This document shows positions 18,938-32,415 of a stretch of 64,000 nucleotides of DNA, piece after piece (position 1 is the first letter of the stretch; each line of letters opens with the position of its first letter). The position numbers and the translations under genes are program-made. The notes under the pieces are model-generated. The model ran no database searches, was not told where the DNA came from, and saw only the letters and a program-made list of their open reading frames with translations. Source of the stretch: Desulfosediminicola flagellatus (GTDB lineage Bacteria; Desulfobacterota; Desulfobulbia; Desulfobulbales; Desulfocapsaceae); NCBI RefSeq assembly GCF_005116655.2, contig NZ_CP050698.1:1-64000 (forward strand), in the 5' to 3' direction.

Positions 18938-18984
18938 TGTCCAGATCTTACAGGTAATATAAATACTTGCGTAAATATCATAGT

Positions 18985-19875
18985 ATGACAAAAAACATAT
19001 CTACATTCTATCTCTGGTGGCTTGCAGTTCGTCCGAAAACATTACCTGCAGCCGCTGCTCCAGTTGCTGTGGGTATAGCTGTAGCTGTATCTGACTCGCA
19101 GTTTGCTCTATTTCCTGCGCTTGCAGCGTTTGCAGGTGCACTTTTACTGCAGATAGCCGTTAATCTCGCAAATGATTATTTTGACGCTAAAAATAATATC
19201 GATTCAGATAAACGACTTGGCCCTGTTCGAGTAACTCAGAGCGGGCTCATCCCTCCCCGGCAGGTGAAAATGGCGATGATAGGTTGCCTGATACTGGCAG
19301 CGATTGTTTTCGGGTATCTGACACTGGTCGGGGGAATGGTGATACTTCTCGTTGGACTTGCCTCGATTATCGCGGCTCTTGCCTATAGTGGCGGGCCGTA
19401 CCCGCTAGCTTCAAATGGCTTAGGCGAGATATTTGTTTTTATTTTCTTTGGCCTTGTTGCCGTGTGCGGGACGTATTGGGTTCAGGCCAGGGAGCTTTCT
19501 GTATTGGTTATTGTTGCCTCATTTCCTCCCGGTTTGCTTATTACCGCTATAATGGTGGTTAATAACCTGAGGGATATTGCTACAGACAAAGAAGCTGGTA
19601 AAAATACCCTTGCTGTAAGGCTTGGCCGAGAAAGAACGATATTCCTTTACCGAGGTCTGCTTGGTGCGTCCTATCTGGTTCCGGTAGTCCTTTCAGGATT
19701 TCAGCAACTGGGAATGATGGTTGTGGTATTACCATTGCTCAGTGTGATTATGGCGTGGAAACTTTTTGGCGAAATAGCTACAGAGACCGGATCAAATCTT
19801 AATGAAATTCTTGCAAAGACCGCAAAACTCTCATTTATCTTCAGTGTGTTACTAGCTATAGGAATAGTATTGTAA
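18985..19875 (+). CDS. menA: 1,4-dihydroxy-2-naphthoate polyprenyltransferase MenA
   Basis: Membrane UbiA-family prenyltransferase that attaches the isoprenoid tail in menaquinone synthesis. It starts with the MenA block WWLAVRPKTLPAAAAPVAVG. The first aspartate-rich motif is NLANDYFDAKNNIDSD, and the second is NNLRDIATDKEAGKNTLAVRLG; both bind Mg-diphosphate. About eight or nine hydrophobic helices follow. I chose ATG 18985 (296 residues); a TTG at 18967 is an in-frame alternative and neither has a strong ribosome site. It follows the ABC transporter genes closely on the same strand, suggesting co-transcription. Menaquinone is the expected quinone for the SQR in this window. Confidence 0.92.
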   Translation: MTKNISTFYLWWLAVRPKTLPAAAAPVAVGIAVAVSDSQFALFPALAAFAGALLLQIAVNLANDYFDAKNNIDSDKRLGPVRVTQSGLIPPRQVKMAMIGCLILAAIVFGYLTLVGGMVILLVGLASIIAALAYSGGPYPLASNGLGEIFVFIFFGLVAVCGTYWVQARELSVLVIVASFPPGLLITAIMVVNNLRDIATDKEAGKNTLAVRLGRERTIFLYRGLLGASYLVPVVLSGFQQLGMMVVVLPLLSVIMAWKLFGEIATETGSNLNEILAKTAKLSFIFSVLLAIGIVL

Positions 19876-22199: not shown

Positions 22200-22239
22200 A
22201 AAAAAAAGCGGCGAAATCAATACGATTTCGCCGCTTTCT
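22200..22239 (-). terminator. Rho-independent terminator of the SQR transcript
   Basis: On the minus strand a perfect 14-bp stem (AAAGCGGCGAAATC pairing with GATTTCGCCGCTTT, loop of five bases at 22219-22223) is followed by an eight-base T-run. It lies 31 bases after the UAG at 22271-22273, and 262 bases beyond the in-frame UGA. This placement supports the longer SQR reading frame. Confidence 0.92.
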
Positions 22240-22270
22240 CACGTTTGGCGCTAGGCCATTTCAACGGAGT

Positions 22271-23494
22271 CTACTCTACACATTTTCCTCTCATATCAAG
22301 AGCTGGCGGTCCAAGCCAGGTTCCTTTGAGAAGCATGTTGAAGTATACCCATTTAAACATGAGCTTGGAGATATGGTTCATCTCGGTATCCTTCAGCAGT
22401 CCAAGAGGACCTACTGCAGGCAACGGATATAATCCGGTGTATGGCTCAGTGTTGTAGTTGAAATCGATGATGTAGGCTTTCCCGAAGCCTGATTCAATGA
22501 ATCAAACCGCATGCCCGTCGGACCGGGCGTGTTGTTCACCTCCGTCAACGAACGCCATGATGTTCTCTTCAAGGATATCACCCTGGAAGTGAGCAACTGC
22601 GCCTGCTTTGGAAGTCGGGACATCTGTACCGTCACCAAGTACCCATACGTTATCGTAGCCTGCTGGCTGAAGGGTATGCTTGTCAACCGGGATGTAACCC
22701 ATCGGATCAGCAACTTCTGATTCGATCATAGCTTCGTCACCGAAGTTTGGCGGAATGGACACCAGCATGTCGTAATCGACCTGTGTTCCGTCATACGCTT
22801 CGATAATTTTCTTTTCAGGATCAACAGAACCAAGAGCAAAGTTCGGGGTGATCTTGATGTTTTTCTCTTCGCATGCAGAAGTAAGAATTCGGGTCGCAAC
22901 AGGCTTGGTGAACGCACCTGAGAGCGGAGTAACGAACTCAATCTCTGTTTTATCGCGCTTACCCTGCTTGGTAAGCCACCAGTCTGCAAGGAATACGAAC
23001 TCAAGCGGTGCAACAGGACATTTGATCGGCATTTCGGCGATGTTTACAACAAGCTTTCCGCCTTCAAATTTCTTGAGCGCTTTACCGAGTGCGATACAGT
23101 CATCATAACGGTAGAAACCGTGGATGTCGTTGCCCCAACCTTCCTTAAGACCTTCAATCTCGTCCGGTCTGATATCACAACCGGTAGACATGATAAGGAT
23201 GTCGTAGGAGAACTTACCTTCAGTACCAGTGGTAACTTCCTGTTTGTTCCAATCAACGTTTGTGATCTCGGAAACGACAAAGTCGATCCCTGGATTCATA
23301 AACTCTTTTTTGGTTCTTCTAATGTCTTTTGGCTTGTTGATGTCGAACGGTACAAAGAGGTAACCCGGCTGATAGTCGTGGATATTGTTTCTGTCGATGA
23401 TGGTAACAGACCAGTCATCATCCAGGTGCTTCCTCATTTTGTTCGCCATCATGGTACCACCGCAACCGGCACCGAGAATGACTAGCTTCTTCAT
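22271..23494 (-). CDS. sqr: Sulfide:quinone oxidoreductase with in-frame UGA (candidate selenoprotein)
   Basis: Flavoprotein that oxidises sulfide and passes electrons to quinone. The start has AAGGAGG before ATGAAGAAG. N-terminal FAD motif LVILGAGCGGTMMA; Cys106 in MSTGCDIRP and Cys159 in IKCPVAPLE fit the conserved Cys pair; the second FAD motif is VWVLGDGTDVPTSKAGAVA. The frame meets UGA at codon 331 (22502-22504) in the context GHAV-U-FIESGFGKAY, then stays open for 76 codons to a UAG and encodes typical SQR C-terminal sequence (FNYNTEPYTGLYPLPAVGP, KWVYFNMLLKGTWLGPPALD). Position 331 is where SQRs carry the second redox-active Cys, so I read UGA as selenocysteine (407 residues). The alternative, termination at UGA, would yield a 330-residue protein lacking that residue and the membrane-binding tail. 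The DUF1641 gene lies upstream. Confidence 0.85.
22474..22490 (-). promoter_or_regulatory. Candidate bacterial SECIS stem-loop in sqr
   Basis: Read on the mRNA, AGGCUU-CGGGA-AAGCCU forms a perfect 6-bp stem with a 5-base loop containing GGG. Counting the UGA as 1-3, the element spans 15-31 and the loop guanines fall at 22-24. From memory this matches the spacing of the 17-nt upper stem-loop of the E. coli fdhF SECIS, whose loop G23 contacts SelB. The lack of a bulged U and the GG rather than GU in the loop are differences. Confidence 0.6.
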
Positions 23495-23587
23495 GATGTT
23501 GATCGCCTCCTTTAGGCAGGTTTCGAACAGGGGCTTTTACCGCCGGCCCGTTCTATAAATATTTTTGCTTTTGCTTTTAACAAAGTA

Positions 23588-24355
23588 TTATTTTTTCTGG
23601 ATGGCCTGTACGCAGGCGCCCATCGCCTGGAGAACCATGAAGGCGGCTCCAAGAGACTGCTGAACATCCTTGTCCATCAGCTGTTTGACAGCACCGATTG
23701 GAGATACCGGCTTAATATTGCTGAAATCAATTCCTTCGATAATCTTGCCGATTTCTTCGGCCTGGGTATCTGTGAGGGAGATTTTCATGGCACTGTTTGC
23801 AGCGGATCCGGCAACCTTGATGAGACCGTTTGATTTTTCAATCGCCAGCTGTATCTCATTAAGAATGGTGATGACCTTAGGGTAAAGGATCTGCGCTACT
23901 GGCATAAGGTCGTCTGTGAGTTCGATTCCAGCTTTAAGGTATCCGACACTTTCGTTCAAGGCGGGTACTGCGGTAATGACGTTTCTCAAAAGAGCAACAA
24001 CATCATCAACAGTTACCTGTCCTTCAAGTTCGGAACAAAATTTGATTACTTCAGGGTATACCTGGTAAGCGATTGGTTCGATATCACGAGCCAGCTCGTT
24101 ACCCGCTCTCATTTTAAAGAACATGGAGTTTATGTCATTTACGCCCACGAGCAGGTTCTCAACTAAATTATTGAGATCTTTCTCGTTGTACTTACCTTCG
24201 AAAGCGGCGAGCAGCGGAGCAGCGGCAGGCTGGGCTGGTTGTGCGGAAGAGGCCGGCGCTTGCTTCGCTTCTTTCAGAGTTTGTACTTCTGATTTCAGCG
24301 ACTGTATTTCGCTTGAGAGGTTGTCTAACTTTTCCAGAATCAAAGCTTCGTTCAT
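23588..24355 (-). CDS. DUF1641 protein, partner of SQR
   Basis: A 255-residue soluble protein. It begins with a coiled coil (EKLDNLSSEIQSLKSEVQTL), then an Ala/Pro/Gln-rich linker (about 35-48). The rest is helical with two repeated segments (INSMFFKMRAGNELARDIEP-IAYQVYPEVIKF and VGYLKAGIELTDDLMP-VAQILYPKVITI) that identify DUF1641. Such proteins are commonly encoded beside SQR or formate-dehydrogenase-like oxidoreductases. It lies 93 bases upstream of sqr on the same strand, so the two are probably one transcript. The biochemical role of the domain is not known to me. Confidence 0.8.
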   Translation of the reverse strand: MNEALILEKLDNLSSEIQSLKSEVQTLKEAKQAPASSAQPAQPAAAPLLAAFEGKYNEKDLNNLVENLLVGVNDINSMFFKMRAGNELARDIEPIAYQVYPEVIKFCSELEGQVTVDDVVALLRNVITAVPALNESVGYLKAGIELTDDLMPVAQILYPKVITILNEIQLAIEKSNGLIKVAGSAANSAMKISLTDTQAEEIGKIIEGIDFSNIKPVSPIGAVKQLMDKDVQQSLGAAFMVLQAMGACVQAIQKK

Positions 24356-27597: not shown

Positions 27598-28225
27598 CGA
27601 AGACTGCTCCTATACAGAATGTTGCTTGAAGTAGCGATGGCAGTATGTTGACATCGCATAGTAAGGCGAGGGCCTGCTTATATGGGAAATAGACACTATT
27701 GCACTGTTTCAGGTAATGGGCAACTAAATTCTAGTTGGAGCAGGACAACAATTCCTGATGTGGATAACCTTCATGCAATTCGATCAATTCTAACGAATTA
27801 TTTCCTTAATGAATACAACGAGGGTGAGTTGCTTGGCAGGGAGATTGGCCGGAGGCGACGCGTTGCTGTTTCTTGCTTGGCTGGATTTGCGTTAAAGATA
27901 CATGCTTTTATTATGGGATGACGGAGTCTTACCTTATGTATGCTGTTGTGCTGGTGAGTGTTGCGCGTACCCGACAAAAAAATCATAGGCCAGCCGGCAG
28001 AAGCGCAAGGGGCAATGTGAAATGAGAAAATTTGACAGAATGCTGTCTCTCTGAGAAATCGTTTGTTTGTGGTGGGTCGTTTGACATCAGGCGGCAGTTT
28101 GTGAAACACTTATAGGTGAAGTCAGCATGTGCTTTGTAGCGTGGAGCATTAAGTTTCACGGGGCCTGCCTGTCTTCTGGAAGTGTGCAGGATAGATGGCA
28201 GATATACCATACGGTGGGTGTGTTC
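27598..28225. other. 628-base divergent intergenic region
   Basis: Short frames occur on both strands, but none has a ribosome site, family resemblance or coding-like composition. A small hairpin GACAG-AATG-CTGTC lies at 28034-28047. It should hold promoters for the ACT/PFL unit and for the FIST-kinase unit. Confidence 0.35.
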
Positions 28226-29401
28226 ATGAAGTCAGCAGTCCATTATAGCCAGGAAGCAGATTCGTATCAGGCAGGAAAGCATGCCATATCCGATATCAGG
28301 GAAAAGTTGTCAGGAGTACAACCTGATTTGCTTGTTCTTTTTTCTTCCATAGCACATGATCTCCCAAAAATCATTCAAGGTATTGAATCAATTGCCCGGA
28401 ATGTACCTCTCTGTGGTTGCACCGGTTCCGGGATTATTACTGGTTCCGGAAGTGATGAAGCTACACACTCTATTGCCTTAATGGGAGTTGTCTGCGAGAA
28501 TATGACCATCACTCCGTTTATCTATTCAGGTCTGTCAGCTGATCCAGAAGGAATTGGAGGACGTATCGCATCAACAATTCATGATGCCGGGATAGGTGTA
28601 CAGGAAAAATCTCTGCTTTTTCTTTTCGCTGACGGTTTAACAATCAATGCTGATGCCCTATATCGTGGCTTGCAGCAAAATTTACTGAACCATATTGATG
28701 TGGTCGGCGGTACAGCAGGTAACGACTTTCAGCAGGACATCACCTATCAATTTTGTAATGGGCAGGTGATGAGTGATGCTGTGTGCGGGGTCCTGGTGCA
28801 TGGTGCCTTTAATTATAAGATAGGAGTTACCCATGGTTCTTCGCCGGTAGGGTTATCACGAACTATAACCAGAGCTGAGGGAAACATCATTTATGAGATC
28901 GACCATCTTTCTGCGCTTGATATTTTAAAACAGTATATCGGTGTAGAGCGGGTGCAGGATGTCGGGCAGACACTTAACCTCTTTGAGCTGGGGCAGGAGT
29001 TTCCCGGGCAGGAGTACAGTCAGGATATTCTCAACAGGGCGATAATCGGCATAGAAGAGGAGGGTGGTGGGATACGACTCGCTGTAGAAATTCCCCAAGG
29101 CGCAAGAGTCCGGATTACCAGAAGGGATTCGGCACTCGTGCTTCAGCGGACGCGCGAGATGGCTGAGATTATGTCAAAGGAATTACGGGACTACCAGAAC
29201 GCGACATTTTTCTACTTTAATTGCAGCGGCAGAGGATCCTATCTCTTTGGAGATCCCGAACAGGAGGTGAATGCGCTGCGTGGAGTGTTGGCTCCTGACA
29301 CTACTATGATCGGTTTTTTTACTTTTGGGGAGTTTGCTCCAATCAAGCGATGCAATTACTTTCATAATTACACCGGAGTGCTGGTAGGGGTTGAAGAATG
29401 A
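28226..29401 (+). CDS. FIST-domain sensory protein
   Basis: A 391-residue protein with FIST N and FIST C domains, sensory modules proposed to bind small ligands such as amino acids. Characteristic blocks are [46 protein letters not shown] and the C-terminal [14 protein letters not shown] with [12 protein letters not shown]. The frame is open from 28127, but ATG 28226 starts right before the domain (the upstream 33 residues look non-coding). No transmembrane segment is present. Its TGA overlaps the ATG of the hybrid kinase by 4 bases, so it is probably the input subunit for that kinase. Confidence 0.85.
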
Positions 29402-32400
29402 TCAGCGGTTTCCCAAAGAGTGATGAGGTACATGTGGATACCGGTCAGCAGGGCGTGGAGAGTGAACGTGTGGCATACGAAGAGGAGATTCATCGGCTGA
29501 CTGCCAACATCATCCGCCAGGAAGCTGAGCTTATTGAAACCCGGGTCGAGCTTAATAAACGTGTTCGGAGTCTGCAGTTTTTTCAAATACTTAATAAGCG
29601 TATTCTCGCTGCAAAAACGAATAAAGAGATCTACCACGTGGTTGTTCATTCTCTGGTAGAGATTGGTTTTGATAAGGCACTTATCTTCAAGAGTAATAGT
29701 GATAAGTACGGGGTGGTTGCTCATCATGGCTATACCTCAGATGCAGTGCTGACCCGAGCACCGGTGCATGATTTGTTGAAGTTCGTAGAGGATCATGGCG
29801 AGCTGCTTGTGAATGGCGCAAATCGTGATTCTGTCGATTTCGATTACGAAAAGAACCTGGAGGTGCAATATTTTATTGCAGCCTGTTTTACTCTGAGACA
29901 AAGTGTTGATGTTCCACATATACTTCTTGCCGGGAATACCAGTGAATCCACAGTACGGCGTTCCCGGTTGACGAGTGTCGATCTGCAGGTTCTGCAGACA
30001 CTTACCCAGCAGATTGTTGTAGCAGTGGAAAATTCTTTTTTTTATGAGCAGCTAGAAAAATCGGAAATAAAATACAGATCGCTTTATGAACAATCTGTTG
30101 AAGGGCTCTTTCAGATAGATCTCAATGGCAAAATTATCAGTGCTAATCCGGCGATGGCAAAAATGTTGGGGTTTACGCATGTCGATTTGCTTGTTGGTGG
30201 ACACAGTGATGGTAGATCACAGTCAATACTCTATGAAGATGATTTTGCACGTTTTGCAAAAATAGTCACCGAAGTTGGTGCAGCTATAGGCTACGAAGCG
30301 GAACTGTGTCACAGAGACACACGAAGCATATGGGGAGCGCTGACAGCAAGGTATGTTGAAAGTGACGGTGATGGTCCAGCATATTTTGAGGGGTCGGTGG
30401 TTGACATCACCGAGCGTAAAAGGGCACGCCAGCTAGATATAGAAAAAACAGCTGCTGAAAAGGCAAATAGGACCAAAAGCGAATTCCTGGCGAAAATGAG
30501 TCATGAAATTCGAACTCCTATGAATGGCGTGCTGGGTATGACAACGCTTCTTATGGATACTGGTCTTGATCCTGCCCAGCAGCATTATGTCGGTGCCATC
30601 AGGCAAAGTAGTGAAGCCTTGTTGGCTATAATTAATGATATTCTGGATTTTTCAAAAATTGAGGCGGGTAAAGTTAGCCTTGAGTTGACCACTTTCAGCT
30701 TACGAAAGTTGCTGGACGAAATAATTGATCTGGTTGAGACAAGGGTGAATCCGGATAAGGTGAAACTTATCTGTTATACCGATCCCGAGGTTCATGATCG
30801 TGTTTTCGGCGATCCGATTCGTTTGCGTCAGATACTCATAAATCTTGCCGTTAATGCAACTAAATTTACAACCGAGGGAGAGGTTGTCATATCTCTCAGG
30901 TGTATGGGAAGCGATTTGCGTTTTTCGGTACTGGACAGTGGACCGGGGATTCCATTTGAAAACCAGCGCCTGCTCTTTGAAAGTTTTACACAGGTTGATA
31001 ACTCGTTGACCCGTGAGGTTGAGGGGACGGGGCTCGGGTTATCAATTTCGAAACAGTTGGTCGAGTTGATGGGGGGAGAAATCGGTGTAGAGTCGGAGCC
31101 TGGCAAAGGCGCGGAATTCTGGTTTACCCTCCGGATGCTCCGCAGTGAAGATGTGCAGCAGGCTGACAATGGTATAACTGACTTTGTGGGCAGGCGGGTG
31201 TTGATAGTGGATCAGGAGAGCTGGAATTTGAGGTATCTGAAATCTCAGTTTGAGGCATGGGGGGCCGATGTGGATCTGGCGACGAATGAGAGTCAGCCGG
31301 AACATTGGTGTGTCAATACTCAGGTTATTAGCCCTCGGTACCATTTGCTTGTGGTTGCTGAAAAGATGGCTCAGTTGAGCGTGGCAAACTGGTTTGAAGA
31401 GGCTATTTACGGCAGAATAATTTTACGCGACAGAGCTTCAATGGGCGGGAGTACATTGAGGCTTGAGGGAGAAAAAAACGTCTACGTACCGATGCCGTTA
31501 CGCTATGGCCATCTAAAAAAAGCGTGTCGTTGCCTGCTGTCAAATCAGGACCTGCATGAATGTCTGTTTAGTGACATGAAGCCTGTTTGGGGTAGTAATG
31601 ATCAGCGCAAAAAATCGCGAGTGCTCGTCGTTGAAGATCACAATATTAATAAGCAGGTTGTGATTGGAATGCTGAACCGGTTGGGGTGTGTCCATGTTGA
31701 TTCAGTGGGTGACGGCCGTGAGGCACTGCAGAGCTGGTCGGAATTCGATTATGATCTGATATTTATGGATGTTTCAATGCCCGTGATGGACGGGCTGGAA
31801 GCTACACGCCGAATTCGTAGCGGTAAAGGTAAGGGGAATTGCGACGTGCCGATTATTGCGTTAACTGCTCATGCGATGGTCGGTGATAAGGAAAAATGTT
31901 TGAAGGTCGGTATGAACGATGTTGTTGTGAAGCCTGTTGATCCGCAAGCGCTGGCATCAGTGCTTGACCGGTGGCTGCCTGGCTTACTTGACGGGGAAAA
32001 TGACAAGCAACTTTCAAATCAGAAAGAAGATGCTGAAGTGATAGAAAAAATACACAACCTGCAGTCTGGTCCGGTAAAGGGTGCAGTTGTGTTTGATTTT
32101 CGAAAACTCACCGACCGTCTTCTTGGAAATGAAGCCCAGGCGAGGCACATTGCTGAATACATGTATAACGAGGTGGGTAAGCAGGTGGCTGAGCTTGAAG
32201 ATGCGCTTGAAGCTGGAGACATAGGCGAAGTTTCACGTTTGGCTCACCGCATGAAAGGGGCTGCCGGCAATGTGCAGGCGGAGCTGCTTTATCTGCAGAT
32301 GAAAGAACTTGAGAATGCTCTTGTCAACAGTGATATGGAGACTTCCCGCATGCTGGTGCGGGAAGTACGGTCACATAGTGTTGAGTTGCGGAATGTTATA

Positions 32401-32415
32401 CGCAGTCACCTGTGA
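29398..32415 (+). CDS. Soluble hybrid sensor histidine kinase (GAF-PAS-HisKA-HATPase-REC-REC-Hpt)
   Basis: A 1005-residue multistep phosphorelay kinase without membrane helices. In order: an N-terminal coiled coil (about 20-60), a GAF-like domain (about 70-215), a PAS domain (about 220-345, [16 protein letters not shown]), HisKA with phospho-His369 in [11 protein letters not shown], HATPase (N box [10 protein letters not shown] boxes DSGPGIPF and [12 protein letters not shown]), a degenerate receiver-like segment (about 595-725) that lacks an obvious phospho-Asp loop, a full receiver ([14 protein letters not shown], Asp791 in [11 protein letters not shown], Lys in VVKPVDP), and an Hpt domain with His950 in [10 protein letters not shown]. 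It is translationally coupled to the FIST gene. No output regulator is adjacent. Confidence 0.92.

Follow-up and report, generated by a model that had tools for sequence, protein, structure and literature searches.

A gene on the minus strand of a 64,000-nucleotide stretch of the Desulfosediminicola flagellatus genome (contig NZ_CP050698.1, positions 1 to 64,000; hereafter the window) encodes a putative type III sulfide:quinone oxidoreductase (SQR), in which an in-frame UGA at codon 331 is very probably read as selenocysteine (Sec) by SelB and tRNA-Sec, aided by a hairpin downstream of the codon. The position of this UGA at the conserved outer redox cysteine, the codon-frozen hairpin behind it and the presence of selB, tRNA-Sec and selD in the genome together support this reading, and with it the pattern of Cys-to-Sec replacement proposed in the original prediction, which was made from the letters of the window. 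The family is already catalogued as a predicted selenoprotein; the reading of the UGA is well supported, yet already known. The remark in the original prediction that no described selenocysteine SQR was known to its author is out of date, as such an enzyme has been described as a prediction (NF049943; accessible parts of PMC13188914 and PMC12013277).

The SQR gene and its in-frame UGA

The SQR frame starts at an ATG at 23494, meets the UGA at 22502-22504 and continues for 76 more codons to a UAG at 22273-22271, giving 407 codons with the UGA as codon 331, as had been read originally. The features of the gene are the following.

22271..23494, minus strand: type III SQR frame, 407 codons with the UGA read through
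22502..22504, minus strand: in-frame UGA, codon 331, predicted selenocysteine, forming a Sec/Cys pair with relatives
22474..22490, minus strand: predicted selenocysteine insertion sequence (SECIS) hairpin, 6 pairs with loop CGGGA, nucleotides (nt) 15-31 counted from the U of the UGA
22475..22495, minus strand: codons 334-340, with synonymous positions frozen in the UGA clade (rank 1 of 352 windows of codons, 25 UGA rows)
23018..23020, minus strand: codon of Cys159, the other redox cysteine, at the alignment position of the first active-site Cys in human SQOR
23456..23473, minus strand: GxGxxG nucleotide-binding motif for flavin adenine dinucleotide (FAD), residues 8-13 (GAGCGG), with G8, G10 and G13 invariant in 35 rows
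23506..23513, minus strand: Shine-Dalgarno-like AAAGGAGG 5' of the ATG, read from the sequence
22202..22240, minus strand: intrinsic-terminator-like hairpin of 18 pairs 3' of the UAG, from a terminator scan

The protein matches NF049943, the NCBIfam model of the selenoprotein subtype of type III SQR, at 653.8 bits (cut-off 525) over residues 2-404, and on this basis the gene matches the type III SQR family. The predicted structure of the protein has the two-dinucleotide-binding flavoprotein fold of SQR. Codon 331 aligns with the second active-site Cys in human SQOR, a type II SQR, and has the same number as Cys331 of the Oceanidesulfovibrio marinus enzyme, in agreement with the original assignment of the UGA to the conserved C-terminal redox Cys. 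The terminator seen originally behind the UAG is found again as the 18-pair hairpin at 22240-22202; the scan that located it is weak by itself, since shuffled sequences would give 3.2 terminator-like sites where the region has 4.

Conservation of position 331

The first set of homologues comprised the window gene, 80 loci from genome contigs (the best 80 of 136) and, from the series L122-L149, 23 loci out of 28. That series was drawn from 146 genomes of the order, 21 of which have a match at E <= 1e-60; four pieces of split frames (L140, L141, L146 and L147) and a distant paralogue (L149) were left out. The resulting 104 rows, three of which are identical to others, represent 101 distinct proteins. 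The split pieces L140/L147 and L141/L146 (genomes G031 and G052) are SQR frames divided between two reading frames in draft genomes. A second draw sampled 395 genomes of the phylum, 29 of which had a match, for a total of 34 match rows. Of these, 28 were examined, after exclusion of the window gene itself, L132 (already counted) and four rows without a locus, three of them with one TGA. The two sets overlap, as the distance between at least 4 Cys rows of the phylum set (L150, L151, L153 and L154) and rows of the first set is zero.

Position 331 is encoded by UGA in 27 of the 101 distinct proteins (the window protein counted) and by a Cys codon in the other 74, with nothing else found there; the phylum rows divide into 7 with UGA and 21 with Cys. 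Both redox positions are thus kept throughout the first set, position 159 being Cys in 101/101 and position 331 Cys or UGA in 101/101. The original prediction had named Cys106 and Cys159 as the intact cysteines. Cys159 stands as a member of the redox pair, but Cys106, present in just 49/101 proteins, was rejected as a member of the redox set and falls outside the conserved pair. Sister strains had also been named originally as a check, and two of the three same-genus genomes (G001 and G003) carry the gene at 90-91% identity with the same UGA and the same hairpin; the third is considered below with the points against a Sec reading. Locus L179 of G003 and locus L023 are probably from the same organism, because their neighbour-gene matches are alike.

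The hairpin behind the UGA

The predicted SECIS hairpin begins 11 nt past the UGA and is formed by pairing of AGGCUU with AAGCCU. Over the 55 nt counted from the UGA, the folding energy is -10.3 kcal/mol (z -2.21), and 6 of 200 shuffles are equally good. Most of the hairpin is made up by codons 334-340. No other stretch of seven codons in the gene is as frozen in its codon use (mean 0.988) across the 25 rows of the main UGA clade, where the sequence reads GAA TCA GGC TTC GGG AAA GCC apart from TCG in place of TCA in two rows and Ala at 335 in one. Among rows with Cys at position 331, the same codons rank 69th of 351 windows in 17 deltaproteobacterial rows and 203rd of 288 in 55 others. These ranks cover 97 of the 101 rows, with L084, L089, gL142 and L085 excluded.

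All six pairs form in 27/27 UGA rows and in 0/74 Cys rows, and a shift of the hairpin partner by 1 to 3 bases lowers the paired positions from 162/162 to at most 106, in a register derived from one of the UGA rows scored and hence biased in its favour. Two UGA rows distant from the main clade, L084 and L089, form the same six pairs with partly different bases. The energy of the hairpin over nt 13-45 separates the two groups modestly (mean -6.8 kcal/mol in UGA rows vs -4.4 kcal/mol in Cys rows). Overall, comparative evidence indicates a SECIS-like hairpin with an early loop G 3' of the UGA, similar hairpins being present in some Cys rows.

Selenocysteine machinery

The original prediction had pointed to selB, selC and selD as genes to look for, and all are in the genome, selD twice. 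Profile search found selB at 368 bits (cut-off 242), and tRNA-Sec (selC), with anticodon TCA, scored 75.9 bits against a gathering score of 47. Each of the two selD genes (L018 and L019) has one in-frame TGA, which suggests that selenophosphate synthetase is likely itself a selenoprotein, in duplicate.

Alternative readings of the UGA

One alternative is that the UGA is read through mostly as Cys, by tRNA-Sec carrying Cys, or as Trp, by a near-cognate tRNA, in which case the working enzyme would be a cysteine SQR. All 74 non-UGA rows have Cys at this position, and a Cys product would likely be functional. However, a frozen SelB-type hairpin and dedicated selB, tRNA-Sec and selD would then be needless, and TGC, although one base away, is found at position 331 in just 1 of the 26 rows of the main UGA clade. 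We regard read-through of this kind as very unlikely.

It is highly improbable that the UGA is a true stop, with a 330-residue enzyme lacking the C-terminal redox residue and helix, and a decaying remnant of the frame behind it. The standard table does end the frame at 330 residues, and selA was not seen in the genome record, part of which reads N. Nevertheless, the codons 3' of the UGA are under purifying selection in 6/6 pairs tested, with non-synonymous differences (pN) of 0.006-0.067 vs synonymous differences (pS) of 0.17-0.61. In addition, position 331 is never UAA or UAG in the 101 rows, and invariant residues (D344, F345, Y347, P351 and others) continue behind it. A pseudogene was likewise rejected by the purifying selection 3' of the UGA. 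Annotation with the standard code would truncate the SQR to 330 residues, with loss of the second redox residue. A sequencing error or private nonsense mutation confined to this genome, named as the main alternative in the original prediction and needing a change of one base from UGC or UGU, has practically no probability left, because 26 further distinct proteins and 7/28 phylum rows share the UGA at this aligned position.

Several observations weigh against reading codon 331 as selenocysteine. Among the Cys rows, 19/74 likewise have a hairpin of at least 6 pairs with G among the two leading loop bases, and the exact six-pair register is present in 5/21 Cys rows and 0/7 UGA rows of the phylum set; therefore, the hairpin alone is not diagnostic of Sec. 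In the third same-genus genome, G002, the only relative at E <= 1e-60 is 51% identical and carries Cys. Finally, neither selA (PF03841, TIGR00474) nor SepSecS (PF05889) was found in the genome, part of whose record reads N. In the draw of relatives, whose 38 genomes include the own one, SelA (PF03841) is matched in 33/38 at E <= 0.001, and in 32 of them above cut-off; the same-genus G002 and G003 have a match, while G000 and G001 have none. In G002, selA is followed by another gene, and tracing the relative of that gene in the own genome leads to N bases. The missing selA is therefore uninformative either way, and the idea that Sec is made here with no known Sec synthase was dropped in view of the N bases in part of the record.

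Distribution and probable separate origins of the UGA form

On a tree of the homologues, the UGA form falls into three or more separate groups, and the hairpins differ between these groups. All 7 UGA rows of the phylum set (L164, L165, L166, L168, L169, L177 and L178) are from one family, f21, and none of them (0/7) forms the six pairs of the main clade. They have a different hairpin, farther downstream, of the form CGAGAAGG-GGUC-CCUUCUCG, whose energy is unexceptional (z -0.99; 35 of 200 shuffles equally good). Three genomes of this family (G387, G427 and G483) carry a Cys copy plus a copy with one TGA.

A tree was built from 92 rows, 33 of them with UGA, comprising 65 of the 101 first-set rows and 27 of the 28 phylum rows (the partial L177 was excluded). 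The UGA/Cys label requires 5 changes on this tree, and forcing all UGA rows into a single clade was rejected by the approximately unbiased test (p-AU 2.35e-05). The simplest reading is three gains, in the main clade, in L084/L089 and in f21, followed by two returns to Cys. A single early gain of UGA followed by many losses is compatible with the label counts, but is disfavoured by the differing hairpins.

Two places in the tree account for the returns. In genome G136 (contig G136:C9), the Cys gene L142 (gL142) lies in tandem with the Sec gene L124; it has TGC at position 331 and no longer forms the hairpin, of whose six pairs three remain. The L124 and L142 proteins have 75% and 74% identity, respectively, to the window protein. 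Within the f21 group, L157-L159 are Cys rows, and L158 keeps nearly the whole f21 hairpin behind its TGC, which looks like a relic of a return from Sec to Cys. Taken together, the persulfide-carrying Cys of SQR has probably been replaced by Sec at least three separate times in sulfate reducers, each time with its own SECIS within the coding sequence and with later returns to Cys, which would point to repeatedly selected selenium chemistry at the sulfide-loading residue, in the first step of sulfide oxidation. Repeated gains of this kind are not mentioned in the accessible passages of the literature. If the Sec prediction holds, a clean test of the benefit of Sec over Cys would be available, as predicted Sec and Cys copies adjoin in at least one genome (L124/L142 in G136).

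Genomic neighbourhood

Upstream of the SQR gene, on the same strand and 93 bases away, lies the following gene.

23588..24355, minus strand: gene of a DUF1641 protein, 255 residues (PF07849, 31 bits, cut-off 21)

The two genes likely share a transcript. A DUF1641 relative is found upstream on the same strand in 17/17 loci L023-L039, and weaker matches occur near some Cys SQRs; thus, the presence of DUF1641 follows the SQR rather than selenium use. The length of the protein varies among relatives, the match in L023 spanning 313 codons compared with 255 residues in the window.

Elsewhere in the window, a menA-like prenyltransferase gene at 18967-19875 (NF004751, 313 bits, cut-off 264) fits menaquinone as the electron acceptor. 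At 28127-32415 there is a FIST-domain protein and, after it, a hybrid histidine kinase; the two are weakly NosP/NahK-like, below cut-offs, and may be a sensing pair. When the window was scanned for other frames that are 120 codons or longer and continue for more than 35 codons past a TGA, five further places emerged, of which three (26394, 34677 and 53870) lie inside a longer frame of the opposite strand and two (61196 and 62235) mostly so.

Proposed mechanism

We infer the insertion of selenium, as well as the mechanism and role of the SQR, along the following lines. By analogy with human SQOR, the redox pair that sulfide would attack would consist of Sec331 and Cys159, which would lie beside FAD. 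The sulfur would then sit on Sec331 as an intermediate of the selenenyl-sulfide type before its transfer to an acceptor or to a polysulfide chain under extension; FAD would pass the electrons on to the quinone pool. The assignment of the sulfane sulfur to Sec331 is suggested because, in human SQOR, the C-terminal residue accepts the outgoing sulfur and the middle residue engages FAD (accessible part of PMC11039317). The O. marinus enzyme with Cys331 has been proposed to remove or recycle sulfide as zero-valent sulfur (accessible part of PMC10989961), and in a sulfate reducer the Sec331 enzyme may have the same role. If the Sec prediction is true, a relative of sulfate reducers has a sulfide-handling enzyme with selenium at the very residue that would accept sulfur. 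No measurement of the selenium content or activity of the UGA form was found in the accessible parts of the literature searched, a body of papers outside which most subscription papers lie.

Comparison with known systems

Human SQOR (PDB 6oi5 and 8dhk), a mitochondrial enzyme, has 27-28% identity to the window protein and Cys, not Sec, at the second active-site position, which is Cys379 (accessible part of PMC11039317). Closer in lineage, a cable-bacteria subtype of class III SQR has been reported in Desulfobulbales, in a subclade with two Desulfopila sequences; it is described with Cys, and the accessible main text has no word beginning with selenoc- (PMC13047784). By its description, the SQR of the sulfate reducer O. 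marinus CS1 is alike in type (type III) and in its conserved positions, Cys159 and Cys331; it differs in having Cys at position 331, and it lowered sulfide toxicity in Escherichia coli (accessible part of PMC10989961).

The deep-Sep study reported a new 'NAD(P)/FAD-dependent oxidoreductase' selenoprotein in D. flagellatus IMCC35005, and also in D. ganghwensis IMCC35004, with SECIS-like structures and Cys homologues given for its new selenoproteins; in the accessible part of that paper this selenoprotein is named by COG only (PMC12013277). It is very likely the window gene, which is the sole match at E <= 1e-60 in its genome. According to a 2026 review, that selenoprotein family is the same as NF049943, whose SQR_III_seleno row follows the heading 'Predicted with high confidence' (accessible part of PMC13188914). 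No difference was found between the window gene and this family, as given in the accessible part of the review, whose motif HxxU fits H328-A-V-U331 of the window protein.
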